Positions 16,857-42,679 of a stretch of 64,000 bases of DNA are shown here, piece after piece (the first letter of the stretch is position 1; each line of letters begins with the position of its first letter). The notes under the pieces are model-generated. The model saw only the letters and a list, made by a program, of their open reading frames with translations. It did no database searches and was not told the DNA's origin. A program made the position numbers and the translations under genes. Origin of the DNA: Calliopum simillimum (taxonomy: Eukaryota; Arthropoda; Insecta; Diptera; Lauxaniidae); assembly GCA_951812925.1 (NCBI GenBank), contig OX638370.1:77978004-78042003 (forward strand), in the 5' to 3' direction.

Positions 16857-17377
16857 TTGAAAACAGACATCTGTGGTTTTCCTGCTTTACTTTCGGTAGT
16901 TTTAAAATTTAATCATCTCGTAATCCCTAAATATTTTTCATCCATCTTTCGATGTCTTCTTCGATTCGTCTTCTTCTCTTCATACAATAGATCACTTTCA
17001 ACTTTGAACTTTCGACAAATTGAGAACAAGATAAAACTTTTTTTTTTCTTTTGATATTTCTCTTAACCCCAGACTGCCTCTCCGATAGAGTAAACAAATG
17101 CAATTAATCACAGGTAAACGACCATAGAAACAACAACAATAAACACCAGCAGTACATAGCAACAGCAAATGACAACAAAAGCGATAGCAGCAACAACAAC
17201 AAAATTTTAAAGGGAAATTTACATTTTTAAGAAAAAAAAAAGAAAAAAAAAGTGTCGCCGACGTTGTTGTTCAGATTAAAAGCGCGTTGAAAAAGCGACA
17301 ACTGCACTTGGCTGCGCTTAGATAATGCAAATGTATTAGTGAGTGTTTGGTGTAGTACATGTATTTGTTTGTATGTA
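16857..17377. other. AT-rich sequence with CAA/CAG tracts
   Basis: Contains a long T run at 17039-17046 and a CAACAACAA/AGCAGCAACA stretch at 17125-17205, typical of fly single-copy non-coding DNA. Nothing coding is recognised. Confidence 0.45.
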
Positions 17378-17479
17378 CCCAACAGAAAATTTCGATGCGC
17401 ATCCCCAAGATGCAATAGCGATGCGCGTCCTTCTCGCATCCAAAGAGCTGATTTGTATGCGCATATTTTCTGCGCTATA

Positions 17480-17645
17480 GGTAGTGAGAGCGAAGCGCAT
17501 CCAAAGAGCATTTCTGAATGCGAGAGCGATGCGCATCCAAAGAGCATTTCTGGTAGCGAGAGCGATGCGCATCCAAAGAGCATTTCTGGATGCGAGAGCG
17601 ATGCGCATCCAAAGAGCATTTCTGGTAGCGAGAACGATGCGCTTT
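17480..17645. repeat. 36-bp tandem repeat block (block 1 of several)
   Basis: Units alternate between GGTAGCGAGAGCGATGCG and GGATGCGAGAGCGATGCG, each followed by CATCCAAAGAGCATTTCT, giving a 36-bp unit and a 72-bp higher-order period. Further blocks are at 17950-18110, 18335-18430, 18735-18880 and, inverted, 18885-18975 and 19300-19370. Because 36 is a multiple of three, all frames stay open. This explains the long repetitive open frames on both strands, which I do not regard as genes. Confidence 0.9.
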
Positions 17646-17701
17646 CGGTCACGTATTAACGTACAAAACAAAATAAATCAATAAGTCGTCTTCGTAAGAG
17701 C

Positions 17702-17792
17702 GTGATGATAGAGCAGTGGTCTAGCGACTGGCACTGCGATTGAGAGTTGTAGCAACCGTGAGGTCCTCGGTTCAACTCCGGCCCAGACCTAA
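17702..17792 (+). repeat. tRNA-like module (SINE head) 1
   Basis: An A-box-like GAGCAGTGGTCTAG at 17711-17724 and a B-box-like GGTTCAACTCC at 17769-17779 are 45 bases apart, near the usual spacing of an internal RNA polymerase III promoter. It is followed by the body AAAGTTTTCAACTTGCAATT, an AT-rich stretch and ...TAGTCTGATGTGTCTTTG. The arms do not pair well enough for a functional tRNA, so a tRNA-derived SINE head is the best reading. Confidence 0.7.
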
Positions 17793-18484
17793 CATAAAAG
17801 TTTTCAACTTGCAATTTTTCAATTATAATTAATTTAGTAAAATAAAAATAATTATAATTACATAAAAAAAAAAAATAATAGTCTGATGTGTCTTTGTTGA
17901 CGAAAGACGTAAAATTTCAATTAAGAAATAATTTTTTAAATATTTTTATTGTCATCCAAAAAGCATCCAAAGAGCATTTCTGAATGCGAGAGCGATGCGC
18001 ATCCAAAGAGCATTTCTGGTAGCGAGAGCGATGCGCATCCAAAGAGCATTTCTGGATGCGAGAGCGATGCGCATCCAAAGAGCATTTCTGGTAGCGAGAG
18101 CGAAGCGCTTCGTTCCAATGACATGCCAATGTTAATTTCAGCGCTTTTGGCAACGAGAGAGATGCGCTTCACTGCTGCTTTAGAGCGCTTCAGAAGCGCT
18201 ATTGATGCGCTCCATTCCCCAATGGGTACCCACCCAACAGAAAATTTCGATGCGCATCCCCAAGATGCAATAGCGATGCGCGTCCTTCTCGCATCTAAAG
18301 ACCTGATTTGTATGCGCATATTTTCTGCGCTATAGGTAGCGAGAGCGATGCGCATCCAAAGAGCATTTCTGGATGCGAGAGCGATGCGCATCCAAAGAGT
18401 ATTTCTGGTAGCGAGAACGATGCGCTTTCGGTCACGTATTAACGTACAAAACAAAATAAATCAATAAGTCGTCTTCGTAAGAGC

Positions 18485-18574
18485 GTGATGATAGAGCAGT
18501 GGTCTAGCGACTGGCACTGCGATTGAGAGTTGTAGCAACCGTGAGGTCCTCGGTTCAACTCCGGCCCAGACCTA
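18485..18574 (+). repeat. tRNA-like module (SINE head) 2
   Basis: Nearly identical to the module at 17702-17792: A-box-like sequence at 18494-18507 and B-box GGTTCAACTCC at 18552-18562. It lies in the left arm of the palindrome 18233-19482 and points toward its centre. Confidence 0.7.
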
Positions 18575-19140
18575 ACACAAAAGTTTTCAACTTGCAATTT
18601 TTCAATTAGAATTAATTTAGTAAAATAAAAATAATTATAATTACGTAAAAAAAAAAAATAATGGTCTGATGTGTCTTGACGAAAGACGTAAAATTTCAAT
18701 TAAAAATTAATTTTTAAATATTTTTATTGTCATCCAAAAATCATCCAAAGAGCATTTCTGAATGCGAGAGCGATGCGCTTCCAAAGAGCATTTCTGGTAG
18801 CGAGAGCGATGCGCATCCAAACAGCATTTCTGGATGCGAGAGCGACGCGCATCCAAAGAGCACTTCTGGTAGCGATCGCATCCAGAAATGCTATTTGGAT
18901 GCGCATCGCTCTCGCATATAGAAATGCTCTTTCGAAGCGCATCGCTCTCGCATTCAGAAATGCTCTTTGGATGATTTTTGGATGACAATAAAAATATTTA
19001 AAAATTAATTTTTAATTGAAATTTTACGTCTTTCGTCAAGACACATCAGACCATTATTTTTTTTTTTTACGTAATTATAATTATTTTTATTTTACTAAAT
19101 TAATTCTAATTGAAAAATTGCAAGTTGAAAACTTTTGTGT

Positions 19141-19237
19141 TAGGTCTGGGCCGGAGTTGAACCGAGGACCTCACGGTTGCTACAACTCTCAATCGCAGTG
19201 CCAGTCGCTAGACCACTGCTCTATCATCACGCTCTTA
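19141..19237 (-). repeat. tRNA-like module (SINE head) 3, mirrored
   Basis: Reverse-strand counterpart of module 2 in the right arm: B box at 19153-19163 and A-box-like sequence at 19208-19221, again pointing toward the palindrome centre. Modules 2 and 3 are therefore convergent. Confidence 0.7.
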
Positions 19238-19482
19238 CGAAGACGACTTATTGATTTATTTTGTTTTGTGCGTAAGTACGTAACCGAAAGCGCTTCGTTC
19301 TCGCTACCAGAAATGCTTTTTGGATGCGCATCGCTCTCGCATTCAGAAATGCTCTATGGATGCGCTTCACTCTCGCTACCTATAGTGCAGAAAATATGCG
19401 CATGCAAATCAGCTCTTTAGATGCGAGAAGGACGCGCATCGCTATTGCATCTTGGGGTTGCGCATCGAAATTTTCTGTTGGG

Positions 19483-20435
19483 TATGTTTGCATCTGGTGT
19501 GTTCTTATTTCTTGCCTACGCATAAGTCCCCTTGCATTAGTTTTTTTTTTTTTAATTTTATTAATTCAACGCCTCACATTTATCACAACAACAACAAAAA
19601 CAGATAAAAAAATGTTAAACAAAAGCACGCGTCTGCATACAATTAACTAACACACATACACACACTAACTAGGAAATGCATGAAAGCAAACAAAAATTCC
19701 AAATCAACTTTTCCTTTCACTATCAAACTGAATGGATTCCAAATTGATTAATTTAGATAGGAAATTTCCAATGAAATTGTCAATGTTCTTAAAGAATTAT
19801 ATCTATAGCCTGTACAAAGCCTTGGTAAATGAAAACCAATGCAAAATTTCTAATTTTCATACCCAATACCCGGGATGCTGGATCACCTAACTCTTTCCAC
19901 TTTTAAAAACATAATTTTTTCGTAAGATTCCAAATTTGCGTTGCAATTCAAGGAATTGAGTTTGCTACCGCACATTCGCTTCCTATTGCATTGTTATTGC
20001 TAATGGTGGTTCACTAATGGTTTGGTGCTCTTTTTTAGCAGCTGGAATATTACATTTTGTTGAAGGAAGTAAGGGTCAGAAGATGTATTTGCACATTTTA
20101 AGACTAAATTTACAGCAATGCACTTTAGGTCAAATAGCACATTTTTTTGGCCAAAACCTATAACATCCATATTTTCATGGTGACCTACTGCAAATGTAGT
20201 TTTTTTGTTGACTCTAGACTAAAATAAAAATTCTGAGAAAAATCTTAACCCTTGTACTACTGGGTCAAAAATGCTATACTAAATTTTTTAAATTTATAAT
20301 AAGTAGCAGCAAGGTTTTCCTTCCAAGCAGTAGAATTCGAATCCGAGGTCAGAATTGACCCATCACCTCAGGATTTGGAGATATTTGAGGTAAAATACAA
20401 GAAAAATGTTTTTTTTTTTTTGGCTATTTTTGAGG
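19483..20435. other. Unassigned AT-rich sequence
   Basis: Holds a T run (19540-19552), a CAACAACAAC tract at 19588 and a TTAACCCTTGTACTACTGGG motif at 20246. The last looks like the end of a TTAA-target element, but no partner end was found. No gene is recognised. Confidence 0.4.
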
Positions 20436-29021: not shown

Positions 29022-30681
29022 AGAGTCTCTAAGGACAGCGTCACGAAGCATAACGCCAGCGAAGACAATAAGTCATACAAGACTTTGTAAACGTACCTCT
29101 TTGGCGATGCGAATGCGAACCTTAAACGGTTATGTTAGAATAAGAACAGTAGAATTAAAAACGTAATAATTTCTATGTATTGGTACTACGTTTTTAGCTC
29201 GCGAAATAGTAACGTTTACGTAACATAAAAGTGGTTCGTTTTTGCTTCGCTAAAATTGGACTTCTTCCGAACTGACTTAAACAAAGATTACATTTGGAAT
29301 TTCATAATAATTTATTTTAAATTGCTTTATTTAACGGGCTTGAGGACCAAATTAATAAAAAACGCTTCTTTGACTTTTTATAATTTATTTAAAATTTCTT
29401 CTTCCAATATTTCGACTACCTTTGATAGTCATCTTCAGGGAACTTGTTAGAAAATAAATAAATAAATTACTTAAAAACAATTTGAAAAAAATATTGCACA
29501 AAACCAAATTTCAATTGTGTTCAGAGTCCGAATGATGAAAAACTTAACAAATGGATCTATTGCGGTTATTGATAGATATTTTAGCTTTTACTTCAAATTA
29601 ATTCATATGTTTTGCGACCATGCGCTTAAAAGTGCTTAACTTAATTAAATTAACGAGACAATCAACTTAAAAGAAAAAGAAAGAAGTGTGTTATTAAATC
29701 ACAAAAAATTTATAAGTAACACAACGTCAAAAAGTGAATTCTTTGAGTGTTGCCATATTAAGCATGAAATGTGAGCGCCCATATTCAACAAATTGTAAAT
29801 AACAACAGCTGATGTTGCCACTGCTCTGTTGTCCACTGCCCGTTAAATAAAGCAATATATATTTCAAAAGGTCGCTAAAATTATCATATTTATATTAAAG
29901 TTTTATCATATTTAACTATTTCATTTATATTACACTCAATTCACAACAATAAAATTTTTTAATATCCATTTCCGTTATACAGTCTGGATTTTCAGAAAAT
30001 TTTTTCAGCTTTATCTCTTAATCTTTGCTGGAAATTTAAAGCACTGGCACTGCTGCTCCCAAGCTGTATTAAGAATCTTCATCACCCAGCCAACGATCCT
30101 TGTACGATGCAGTCCATACTTTCAGATTCGATTGCATCAGAACCGTGGATGATGTTGCGTCCAACCTGGATGCAGCAATCTCCACGCGAAAAATAGCGGG
30201 CCTTGAGTCAGCAGAGTTGCTTGCACCCAACATCAACGTTCAAGCCTTCTCACATCATTTTAACTACCAGGCCAGAACTCATGTAAGTGATCAAAATGGA
30301 CATGAAATGACGAGCAGACAAATCAGAGTAGTGCATCTGAAGTAATTCCTTTGATGCCTAGGTGAATTTCAAAGCTACCAGCTTGAAGCCCTTCTCTTCG
30401 AAGCGTTAGATAATCTTATCAAAAAATCCTCAATGAACGCCATCAAATTTATCATGATAAAAGTACACTCCTTGTTTGCTGCTATGTGATGAAAAAAGTA
30501 ATGCAATTCCTTCATTCCAGAAATTATCAATAAAATACTCAAACTAACAACTGACAAGTAATTTATTTAATAAAATTTGTTTGTTTCCATATTCAATGTA
30601 TGTATGTGTTAGTGAAATCGCAGTTCGTAAGCGATTCGCTTTGGGTACGAAATTAATGAGCCGTTAATTTTTCTTGGAGGG
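29022..30681 (-). mobile_element. Element with shared ends carrying an NDP-kinase pseudogene (copy 1)
   Basis: Both ends match the compact copy at 41956-42362. On the minus strand it starts CCAAGAAAAATTAACGGC, continues TACCCAAAGCGAATCGCTTA and TTCACTAACA, and then enters the kinase-like sequence. It ends with CTTTGGCG-, GTAAACGTAC- and GCGAAGACAATAAGTCATAC-type blocks at 29022-29115. About 950 bases between the kinase part and the right end are absent from the other copy and are likely a later insertion. TA flanks are not clear here. Confidence 0.65.
30069..30485 (-). pseudogene. awd-like: Nucleoside-diphosphate kinase pseudogene (awd-like)
   Basis: The minus strand reads AANKECTFIMI near 30485. 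Nucleotide-level matches to the kinase follow through changing frames: a GKIIERF-like part, GFKLVALKFT and ASKELLQ. Next come HYSDLSAR, MSSGLVV and EGLNV, then GASNSADS and CIQVGRNIIHGSDAIES. A truncated tail WTASYKD ends at a stop at 30069. The His of NIIHGSDA corresponds to the residue that is phosphorylated in active enzymes. At least four frameshifts or stops occur and about 15 codons near the C-terminus are lost. No intron-like gap interrupts the match, consistent with a processed origin. Confidence 0.88.
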
Positions 30682-30831
30682 AGGGCAGAAAAAAATTCAA
30701 TATTTTTTTGAGAAACGGAAACGCTATAAGTTTTAAACGACTAGTCGGATGATCATGATTTAATTTATGTAGATGCCTTGAAAGTAAATTAAATTTTATT
30801 GAAAAATTCGTCATAATACCTTATAGGCGAG

Positions 30832-31522
30832 GAGCCGGCAATACTAAAAGTGCCGTCATCGCGGATTCTGAAATTTTTAATGCAAAATGGTAGTTTACAC
30901 TAAGACGAATAAGAAAAGCTTGGTCAGCATGGTTGTAGCCTGGCAGAAATATTTTTAAATGATTTTTGAATAATTCAATTTTCGGAATGTTTTGCCGTCA
31001 TCGCGGATTTTGATCAATCTTAATATTAATCGATGGTAAATTTCATAACCATTCAGAAAAATCCGGCCGACGAAATTTTTTTTGCCAAAAATGACCGGCA
31101 GACCTATTTTAATGGTGCGACAGTGGGTACTTCCGGAAGTTTCTAAGCTCGCATACCAAGATATTTTTAAATTTGACATTAAAACACGTAAATTAAAAAA
31201 AATAAAAAATTTCCGTGATAACAGAGAAATTGTACCCACCATTAAAATAGGTCTGCCTGTCATTTTCGGCAAAAAAAAATTGGTCGGCCGGATTTTTCTG
31301 AATGGTTATGAAATTTACCATCGATTAATATTAAGATTGGTCAAAATCCGCGATGACGGCAAAACATTCCGAAAATTTAATTATTCAAAAACCATTTAAA
31401 AATATTTCTGCCAGGCTATAACCATGCTGACCAAGCTTTTCTTATTCGTCTTAGTGTAAACTACCATTTTGCATTAAAAATTTCAGAATCCGCGATGACG
31501 GCACTTTTAGTATTGCCGGCTC
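30832..31522. mobile_element. Palindromic (foldback-type) element, arms of about 290 bp
   Basis: GAGCCGGCAATACTAAAAGT at 30832 is mirrored by the complement ending at 31522, and pairing continues inward to about 31131 and 31231, leaving a loop of about 100 bases. Within each arm, GCCGTCATCGCGGATT occurs twice. Arms differ at only a few positions. No transposase is present. The open frames on both strands are products of the palindrome. Confidence 0.88.
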
Positions 31523-32435
31523 CCGGACTATTACAAAAATACGTAAAGATTATTGTAACAAACATTTCGTTTGGAAATGAACGTTTGGAAATTCTTAAAT
31601 TTAAATTGTTTAATAATCGAAATTCATAGTAAGCTTGTCAAAATCATTTGAAAAAGGCTTATTATAATGGTTTTGATACAATATTTTCCAAATGTTTTTA
31701 TATAATATTTTTAAATTGTTTTTAGATTTTTCAATAAACATTTTGTTAGTGTTTTCTAAGTTAGTCTAACAATATTTTCCAAACATTTTTATATTTAACC
31801 AAAAATAAAAATTATATTCACTGAGAACCGAACCTATGATTTGACAAACTTATAAACTGTCCTTAAGTGTCAATTATGATTCAAATGCTTGTGTTTCACT
31901 TAGCTCGATAAGTCATTGAAAAATAAAATTCAAATTTTTTCGTAAGTTTCAAAAACGATTGCTCAAACTTTTGGAAAATAGTATTTTCTAATTGTTGACT
32001 TTAACCTTGCATATCAATTGAAAAATTATAAAAAAACAACATTTTCCAAACGCTAATTTAAATTTGATACTCGTATAAATTTGGTTAATTTTTTTTTTTT
32101 TTAGTTTTTGGAATAAAAGTCCTTAAAGTCCATTTTTAAAGCTATTTTATTTAGAAATAAAACTTGTTTTGTGTAAAAATTTTTATTACTTTAAATTTCA
32201 CGTACAAAACCAAAACGTTGGGGCCACTTTTTTTATATTATTCAGTATTTTTTCCAATGCAATGTATAAGATTTACAAGGAAAATGTAACCTTAAAGACA
32301 TTGATTGATGGTATTTGTTTTGAAACAATTGCAACCAAGATTGTCATTCATTTGTCGACGCTGAAAATACATTTGCTAATCAAGAAATTCAAAATAAATT
32401 GAAGTTTTTTTTCTGCTTTGCAGGCTGCTTAATTG
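31523..32435. other. AT-rich sequence, nothing recognised
   Basis: Repeated ATATTTTCCAAA(T/C)GTTTTTATA phrases (31680-31800) suggest a weak internal duplication. No gene or element end is recognised. Confidence 0.45.
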
Positions 32436-38885: not shown

Positions 38886-39427
38886 CGTTAGGTTAGCGAC
38901 TGTTAATATTTTTTTTTTTAACTAGTTTGGTTTGTTAAGCTAGAAAGAATATGTAATCAAAAATATTAGGGCGGATATACTTTCGGAGATATAGCCATCG
39001 GAAGATCGGAAGATCGGAAGATCGGGATAAGTATGTCTTTTATAAAAATCGGTATAAGTTGAGAACGCCTTGATGGATTTTAAAAATATTGATGTCATAT
39101 GAAAGGTATTTTGCCGGACTACATGTTTGCTGCAATTGAGTCATAGTTTTTGAGATAAGACAATTTTTCAAAAATTCACCCTATTTTTTTGCAGAAAAAC
39201 ATTATTTTTCGCAAAAATGTATTATTAACCTATAATTTTAATAACTAAGTTGAGAAGCCCAATTTATTTCCTTTCATTTGATATGCAACACGTATCCGAA
39301 ATACAACGGCACTTACGAAATTTGACTTTCGCACAGAAAAACTAATCATTTGACCTATTGTGGCACCGACGAATGTCTTATATTTCTGTGCCTGCATAGC
39401 CCCTAACATAAAAAATTTTCTAAAACA

Positions 39428-41866: not shown

Positions 41867-41955
41867 GGGCTCCCTTAAATAACTCCATAGCAAATAAAGC
41901 CAGAAAATTTTTTGAAACTTACGCCAGAAAATATGCATACAAAATTCTGGCGTTA

Positions 41956-42362
41956 CACTCCAAGAAAAATTTACGGTTCGTAAATTGCGTACCCAAAGCG
42001 AATCGCTTACGAACTCTCATTTCACTAACACTCACATTGAATGTGTAAGCAAACAATATTTATATTTTTATTTGTCAGCATTTGGCAGCATTCCAGGAGC
42101 ATGGATTGTTGGTAAGATTATCCAACGAATCAAGGGCAAGGGCTTCAACTTAGTGCTCGTCCTTTTCCAGTAGTTGCAATGATGTTGGAAGGCTTAAACG
42201 TGAAAACTATGTAAGATATTGGGTGAGACCAACCCTGCTGACTCATACTCGGGTCTGATGATGGTTCAAATGAGCAAAACGCCAAAGCGGTACGTTTACG
42301 GAGTCTAGTATGACTTAAAGACTTCGCCGGCGATACGCTTTCGTAACGCTTTTCTTAAAGGG
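41956..42362 (+). mobile_element. TA-flanked 407-bp element carrying an NDP-kinase fragment (copy 2)
   Basis: TA stands at 41954-41955 and 42363-42364. Deleting the segment and one TA recreates the host motif CTGGCGTTATTTCC, which occurs many times nearby, so the boundaries are firm. The ends CACTCCAAGAAAAATTTACG and (complement) CCCTTTAAGAAAAGCGTTACG are imperfect inverted repeats. Inside, from left to right, are TACCCAAAGCGAATCGCTTA, a kinase fragment (42083-42245) and then GTACGTTTACGGAGTC and ACTTCGCCGGCGATACGC. The same non-coding parts frame the pseudogene at 30069-30485. A Tc1/mariner-like mobiliser is inferred from the TA target only. Confidence 0.8.
42083..42245 (+). pseudogene. awd-like: Nucleoside-diphosphate kinase fragment (awd-like), internally deleted
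   Basis: Reads WIVGKIIQRIKGKGFNLV (kinase N-terminal helix). A deletion of about 30 codons follows, with VLVRPF-like remains, then PVVAMMLEGLNV and, after a frameshift, ILGETNPADSYSG. These are in the same order as in the enzyme, but the active-site His region is absent. It is much shorter than the sister fragment at 30069-30485. Confidence 0.82.
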
Positions 42363-42679
42363 TATTTCCATTTTGTTTTAAAAATAAGGCCAAAACTTTT
42401 CTGGCGTTATTTTCTAGTTATTTTTTGGTTTTATTTCCAAAACAAAATGGAAATAACGCCAAAATTTCGTATTGAGGTTTTTCTGGCGTTATTTCCAAAA
42501 AATTTTCTGGCGTTATTTTTTATGGCGTTATTTCCTATGGAATTATTTCCAAAATTTCTGACGTTGTTTCCTAATTAGTTTTTGGCTTCATTTTCAAAAA
42601 TTAATGCCAGATAATTTCTGGCGTTATTTCCAAAAAAATTTCTGGCGTTATTTCCTATGGCGTTATATCCGGGAGCCCG

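Follow-up and report, generated by a model that had tools for sequence, protein, structure and literature searches.

The window analysed here, a stretch of 64,000 nucleotides from the lauxaniid fly Calliopum simillimum (GenBank assembly GCA_951812925.1, contig OX638370.1), contains a 407 bp segment (positions 41956-42362) in which sequence resembling a host nucleoside-diphosphate kinase (NDPK) lies between inverted ends. This raises the question of whether a mobile element has taken up a piece of a host gene and, if so, by what route. We consider it very likely that the segment is a copy of a non-autonomous cut-and-paste transposon family with a spliced host NDPK cDNA inside. The family is marked by a 13 bp terminal inverted repeat (TIR; CCCTCCAAGAAAA), a 2 bp target duplication and an AT-rich target, and the proposal of the earlier note that a non-autonomous DNA element captured a copy of a host kinase and moved with it agrees with the TIRs, the duplications, the many sites occupied and the kinase sequence within.

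The segment (copy B, forward strand) lies inside an older foldback element (41867-42679, no strand assigned), which has inverted arms and, by eye, ends in GGGCTCCC/GGGAGCCC with GAAATAG on both sides. Joining the flanks of B, with B and one TA left out, gives CTGGCGTTATTTCC, a motif that, as the earlier note had recognized, is repeated in the surrounding foldback element (three exact occurrences on the forward strand and eight of the core GGCGTTATTT). The joined flanks could be aligned without gaps to an inverted arm within 42411-42480 over 50 bases, of which 44 are identical, and with the right cut displaced by 1-6 bases to either side the score fell from 38 to between 36 and 25 in every case. 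Thus, the boundaries stand where removal of the segment with one TA had placed them. The TA target duplication, read from the flanking letters, occupies 41954-41955 on the left (forward strand) and 42363-42364 on the right. The foldback element has many inverted arms, and the GAAATAG on both sides of it may indicate that it is mobile itself, with a 6-7 bp duplication.

The left transposon end of B (41956-42085, forward strand) includes subterminal palindromes and the TIR CACTCCAAGAAAA, a decayed CCCTCCAAGAAAA. Over some 125-130 bp it matches four further NDPK copies at 86-89%, and its first ~75-90 bp are common to NDPK-free relatives at 91-97%. Two pieces of NDPK cargo follow on the same strand. 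The first (42103-42155; GKIIQRIKGKGFNL) is 79% identical to coding nucleotides 58-110 of the spliced host gene; the second (42167-42278; ARPF-PVVAMMLEGLNV and KILGETNPADS) has internal deletions, matches coding nucleotides 216-298 of the host gene at 82% over 42167-42244, and is up to 92% identical to other element copies, whose match extends to 42278. Kinase-derived sequence in the segment, as previously claimed, is apparent both in DNA (42103-42155 and 42167-42244) and in protein, where the match reaches about 42254. The right transposon end with its TIR (42280-42362, forward strand) is 85-89% identical to the right ends of NDPK copies and NDPK-free relatives. The imperfect inverted ends reported earlier exist, as in copies elsewhere, but the letters listed for them derive from CCCTCCAAGAAAA/CCCTCTAAGAAAA by decay. 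B itself is an old family member that has undergone internal deletion and that landed in the foldback element.

The longer kinase pseudogene said to be framed by the same ends could be recovered as copy A, now placed at 29025-30681 on the reverse strand, a decayed copy with a nested insertion, with provisional boundaries and no matching target duplication. Positions 3-108 of the 407 in B align with A 30679-30570 at 82.7%, and positions 325-405 with A 29106-29027 at 81.5%, so that A stops at the same points as B. The left end of A (30552-30681, reverse strand), which matches B at 82.7% over 110 bp, is 90-91% identical to relatives across its initial 86-87 bp, and its right end (29027-29322, reverse strand), of which about 296 bp are common to other copies, is 85.6% identical to that of L022. 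The NDPK cargo of A (29984-30485, reverse strand) begins at the start codon and extends beyond the poly(A) signal; it is intronless, has several stops and frameshifts, and could be aligned with the spliced host gene at 71% over 564 columns that span the exon junction. A piece of copy A matches Pfam NDK at 8.6e-14, the best solved relative being 1ndl. A and B thus share ends and NDPK, as two copies of one element would, but A is flanked by GA and AG, with TA at neither end. The insertion nested in A (29318-29875, no strand assigned) has 22-nt inverted arms at 29318-29339 and 29838-29859, and the alignment of A to L022 breaks there, with a repeated stretch; TTAA within these arms (29318-29859) may mark a piggyBac-like miniature element. 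Two large inverted repeats elsewhere in the window, at 17376-19484 (95% arms) and 30823-31531 (88% arms), are apparently unrelated foldback elements.

The genome searched for further copies comprises 690 Mb in 334 contigs. With B as query, 451 candidate places were obtained, of which 40 were scored; 40 places were fetched with their flanks (L009-L048, L048 being copy A), giving with B 41 copies for examination. The left-end pattern (29 bases, at most three mismatches) occurs at 236 places and the right-end pattern (27 bases) at 247, counts that include ends outside NDPK copies, and the reversed control of each occurs at none. From the aligned copies, the true element ends are CCCTCCAAGAAAA...TTTTCTTAGAGGG, with a TIR of 13 bp. 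The right end could be located in 30 of the 41 copies, the stretch fetched for the other 11 being without one, and in 28 of these 30 both TIRs match at 9 or more of 13 positions. An exact 2 bp target duplication flanks 23 of the 28 testable copies, against 4.5 expected from re-paired flanks, and a 3 bp duplication flanks none; L015, L018, L025, L046 and copy A lack a matching duplication. An NDPK match by tblastn (E ≤ 0.01) is present in 39 of the 40 fetched copies, the exception being L011.

The duplications are TT in seven copies, AT in five, AA in five, TA in three, and TC, TG and CT in one each. A preference for A/T targets is clear and TA specificity is absent. As only three of the 23 are TA, the "TA-flanked" description is an accident of copy B, and of the expectation that many copies would show both ends, TA duplications and a decaying kinase, everything is borne out apart from TA as the target. 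The same count removes the Tc1/mariner reading, for which the TA duplication is defining. Membership in ISL2EU (PHIS), described in PMC4482050 with an AT target duplication, was likewise rejected, AT accounting for 5 of the 23 only.

The copies lie on several chromosomes with differing flanks, and include same-length groups at separate sites (four of 1032 bp and three of 901-902 bp); groups of copies each have their own internal deletions. Five copies of the 1032 bp type (L018, L020, L021, L022 and L027) are 98.8-99.8% identical when gaps, including an extra stretch in L018, are left out, so that movement in that group is recent; the ends of A and B, by comparison, are only about 82% alike.

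The host NDPK gene, a housekeeping gene, could be located at C2:3715571-3716135, where an open frame is interrupted by a 76-nt intron after the region encoding residues 17-140. Over these residues the protein is 89.5% identical to a Drosophila NDPK. The NDPK relatives that stand first among the matches listed are dipteran. The surroundings of the gene were searched specifically for the ends of this element family, and neither left nor right ends were found in 3.4 kb around the gene or in 4 kb further upstream. NDPK-like matches in the genome number 147. Of the best 30, 25 are loci that have a transposon end (left or right); the five without are the gene itself (L049), L050, L051, L058 and L078. 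L051 (C308) and L058 (C192) are NDPK-like open frames on small contigs, 47% identical to fly NDPK, and may be other NDPK genes or foreign DNA. The kinase piece found no match among bacterial and archaeal genome contigs. The idea that element positions 76-165 represent a 5' exon belonging to the gene was rejected, as the best match within the 4 kb upstream (E = 4.7e-4) lies in A/T-rich sequence and on the wrong strand.

Alignment of the cargo to the functional gene shows that the 76-nt intron is absent from the cargo. Among 42 sequences (the 40 loci, B and L050), 12 cross the exon junction of the spliced reference in one alignment and the other 30 have no alignment there. Weak alignments (69-73%) into the intron were seen in L009, L033 and L041; these are read as over-extended because L033 and L041 also cross the spliced junction, and L009 is unmatched there under stricter alignment. 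In 32 of the 41 sequences with an alignment, the match to the gene begins 33-16 nt upstream of the ATG. It ends 16-22 nt after the AATAAA of the gene in 24 of 41, falling short of that in 15 and passing beyond it in two. The spliced state of the cargo thus suggests passage through RNA, and its stopping where cleavage is expected, at a poly(A) site placed by prediction rather than from a transcript, favours an mRNA source. At the shared cargo junction the aligned copies show neither a poly(A) tract nor a target duplication of retrocopy type, so that the case for reverse transcription is made by intron loss and the 3' end alone; the tract and the cargo's own duplication may have been lost before amplification.

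One kinase copy, L050 (C5:90655931-90656287), is spliced, has neither transposon end and keeps part of the 5' leader of the gene, a part lost from the aligned copies. Element positions 76-750 are common to it and copy A, and in a tree without support values it is sister to the element cargoes. We considered it as an untouched donor retrogene; however, the first part of the shared flank is also present in NDPK-free relatives, and L050 therefore more plausibly represents an early copy or a truncated one. Two inward-facing left ends surround it, at C5:90640414 (forward) and C5:90662273 (reverse), less than 22 kb apart, a spacing tighter than the genome-wide density of ends suggests. A right end at C5:90644093 forms a pair with the former, and the latter (L081) adjoins an SMC-like coding frame (Pfam AAA_23). 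A stretch resembling the foldback element that received B is found downstream of L050.

Other origins for this arrangement can be weighed against these data. Independent processed pseudogenes of the kinase, merely lying beside or inside a common transposon, would account for a spliced cargo with its 3' end at the expected poly(A) site and for an intronless copy without transposon ends such as L050. We nevertheless hold this to be very improbable, as the aligned copies have common upstream and downstream cargo junctions (38 rows, and 16 rows in a second alignment) and L050, sharing element sequence with copy A, is a relative too, truncated or early. Spread by segmental duplication or in tandem from the true kinase locus has in its favour the kinase sequence in common and nothing more, and can be practically dismissed: the copies sit on several chromosomes, end at the TIR and have differing flanks and short duplications, and the gene has an intron and is without element ends in about 7 kb around it. 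The outcome that the earlier note had named as fatal to a transposon, namely ends found only beside the true kinase gene or as one segmental duplication, is thus not what the genome contains. Subterminal palindromes, by eye ATTTACG-GTT-CGTAAAT and AAGCGA-A-TCGCTT on the left and GCGATACG-CTTT-CGTAACGC on the right, could suggest a rolling-circle element of the Helitron/Helentron type. Helitrons make no target duplication and have TC...CTRR ends; the matched 13 bp TIRs at both ends, the 2 bp duplication in 23 of 28 copies and the absence of both a TC start and a CTRR end make this assignment exceedingly improbable.

A further possibility concerns the cargo, which might be useful to the element or the host, as a selected protein or as the origin of small RNAs that target the gene. 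It is retained in many copies, including the most uniform group, and differences between the gene and the majority of copies fall unevenly over codon positions (13/130, 10/131 and 30/132), which allows some constraint before amplification. However, constraint on the gene's own branch would by itself produce an excess at third positions in this comparison, and heterozygosity among copies is even (0.275, 0.241 and 0.262 for the three codon positions, 3 of 40 loci left out). None of the 40 fetched copies has an intact kinase frame, the longest forward ATG frame being 109 aa. We consider a useful cargo unlikely; the even variation over codon positions argues that the kinase was a passenger during amplification.

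The same ends also occur with other contents. A query with the first 75 bases gave 268 candidates, of which 40 were scored, and 17 NDPK-free relatives were fetched, none with NDPK within the stretches examined. In several of these the left 101-135 bp and the final 248-260 bp match NDPK copies at 81-90%, and 9 of the 10 with both ends located have a 2 bp duplication (the exception is L096). A PHD/extended-PHD piece is carried by L095, L096, L099 and part of L085: the frame of L096 is closest to peregrin/BRPF1 (5erc, E = 1.1e-11), that of L099 gives a Pfam zf-HC5HC2H_2 match (2.8e-6) slightly above the cut-off, and that of L095 looks like it reads across an unspliced intron, as judged from the frame itself and not from a located parent gene. 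BRPF-like pieces in the genome amount to 38 matched stretches. The stretch C1:17111291-17111531 was tried as the host BRPF gene and on inspection is another decayed copy. Part of cytochrome bc1 subunit 2 is present in a group related by DNA (L082, L086, L088, L093, L094, L097 and L098), of which L094 and L097 also have the BRPF-like piece. The frame of L093 matches 7o37 at E = 1.2e-5, with 23 of the 26 listed chains being cytochrome bc1 subunit 2 and two named only as the complex; a Pfam search of this frame gave no match.

A third, young group (L083, L084 and L089) comprises elements of 2327-2328 bp, about 99% identical over the element and without recognisable cargo, whose 13 bp repeats match the consensus at 13 and 12 positions. 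Stretches of these relatives also match the window at 39013-39288. They were considered as transposase carriers and rejected, their internal frames being at most 71 aa; L084 is accompanied by a 292-aa Tc1/mariner-like frame (by eye), which is outside the element. No transposase frame was seen between both ends among the same-ended elements read. L085 has a Mos1-type HTH frame (Pfam HTH_48, 4.6e-12) and L095 a gag-like frame (3.5e-4), each less than 1.5 kb from a left end with the right end not located. Long end-to-end pairs, paired by eye among the first 100 listed of the 236 left and of the 247 right ends, were also considered as autonomous partners. Three were fetched: two proved to be relatives interrupted by LTR retrotransposons (by eye copia-like and BEL/Pao-like, from the first 3.3 kb of each), and one is a repeat-rich relative; a fourth long pair extends from C1:6107045 to 6119756.

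Returning to the transposon family with a spliced NDPK cDNA, we hypothesize that kinase mRNA was reverse transcribed and that the cDNA entered an element once, perhaps by retroposition into the element or by copying during repair or replication. A transposase acting in trans would then have mobilised the chimera, and the kinase, as a passenger, probably decayed while the ends stayed. The best reading is that of an animal Pack-TIR family in which a gene copy derived from mRNA was captured and then amplified.

Animal Pack-TIRs, as described by Tan et al. 2021 (PMC8277862), likewise have non-TE sequence within TIR ends and a parent elsewhere. That survey reports 370 cases, none in insect reference genomes and four multicopy (1.4%), multicopy cases having differing target duplications, together with one fly case, Ssk-FB4. 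Its method discarded captures that are intronless against a multi-exon parent. The present family has TIRs at both ends, a target duplication, a host-gene interior and a parent gene without this element's ends, but capture at the DNA level is not what the NDPK cargo shows, as it is without the 76-nt intron; the family therefore works like a Pack-TIR and yet would be screened out of that catalogue. It further differs from the catalogued cases in having more than 200 ends in one genome and several cargoes, one of them intronless. Intronless capture has a precedent in the histone H3 of a hAT transposon in Dothideomycete fungi (Dhillon et al. 2019, PMC6710886), where a housekeeping gene, as an intronless transcript or retrocopy, is amplified by a TIR element into hundreds of broken copies. 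The fungal element has 8 bp duplications, 18 bp TIRs and RIP damage, whereas the present one has 2 bp duplications and no known mutator and resides in an animal. Families of ends bearing host-gene pieces are also seen in plant Pack-MULE/Pack-TYPE elements (PMC8903248), which are of other superfamilies; a word search of that source gave no mention of animals or introns. An earlier animal case, Turmoil-1 of C. elegans, similarly has host coding pieces (of rsp-2 and cpg-3), but according to PMC2572040 these sit in the inverted terminal repeats themselves, unlike here. Pack-TIRs and intronless capture are thus each already known; a many-copy insect family with RNA-derived cargo is undescribed in the literature searched, where no title or abstract on such a family was found, within a coverage that takes in few of the subscription journals.

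Gene capture by TIR transposons has been described mainly in plants and fungi and rarely in animals. RNA-derived cargo inside amplified TIR ends shows that a retrocopy filter such as that of PMC8277862 can hide a real class, and the many copies per cargo in one genome offer material for working out the route of capture. We see an even chance that an insect TIR family repeatedly captures host genes, at least three of them (NDPK, BRPF and cytochrome bc1 subunit 2) and one via RNA, and has amplified them to hundreds of sites; such a family would be an animal counterpart of the plant Pack-MULE engine, driven by a transposase superfamily with degenerate 2 bp duplications not previously tied to gene capture. 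The family connects retroposition with DNA transposition.
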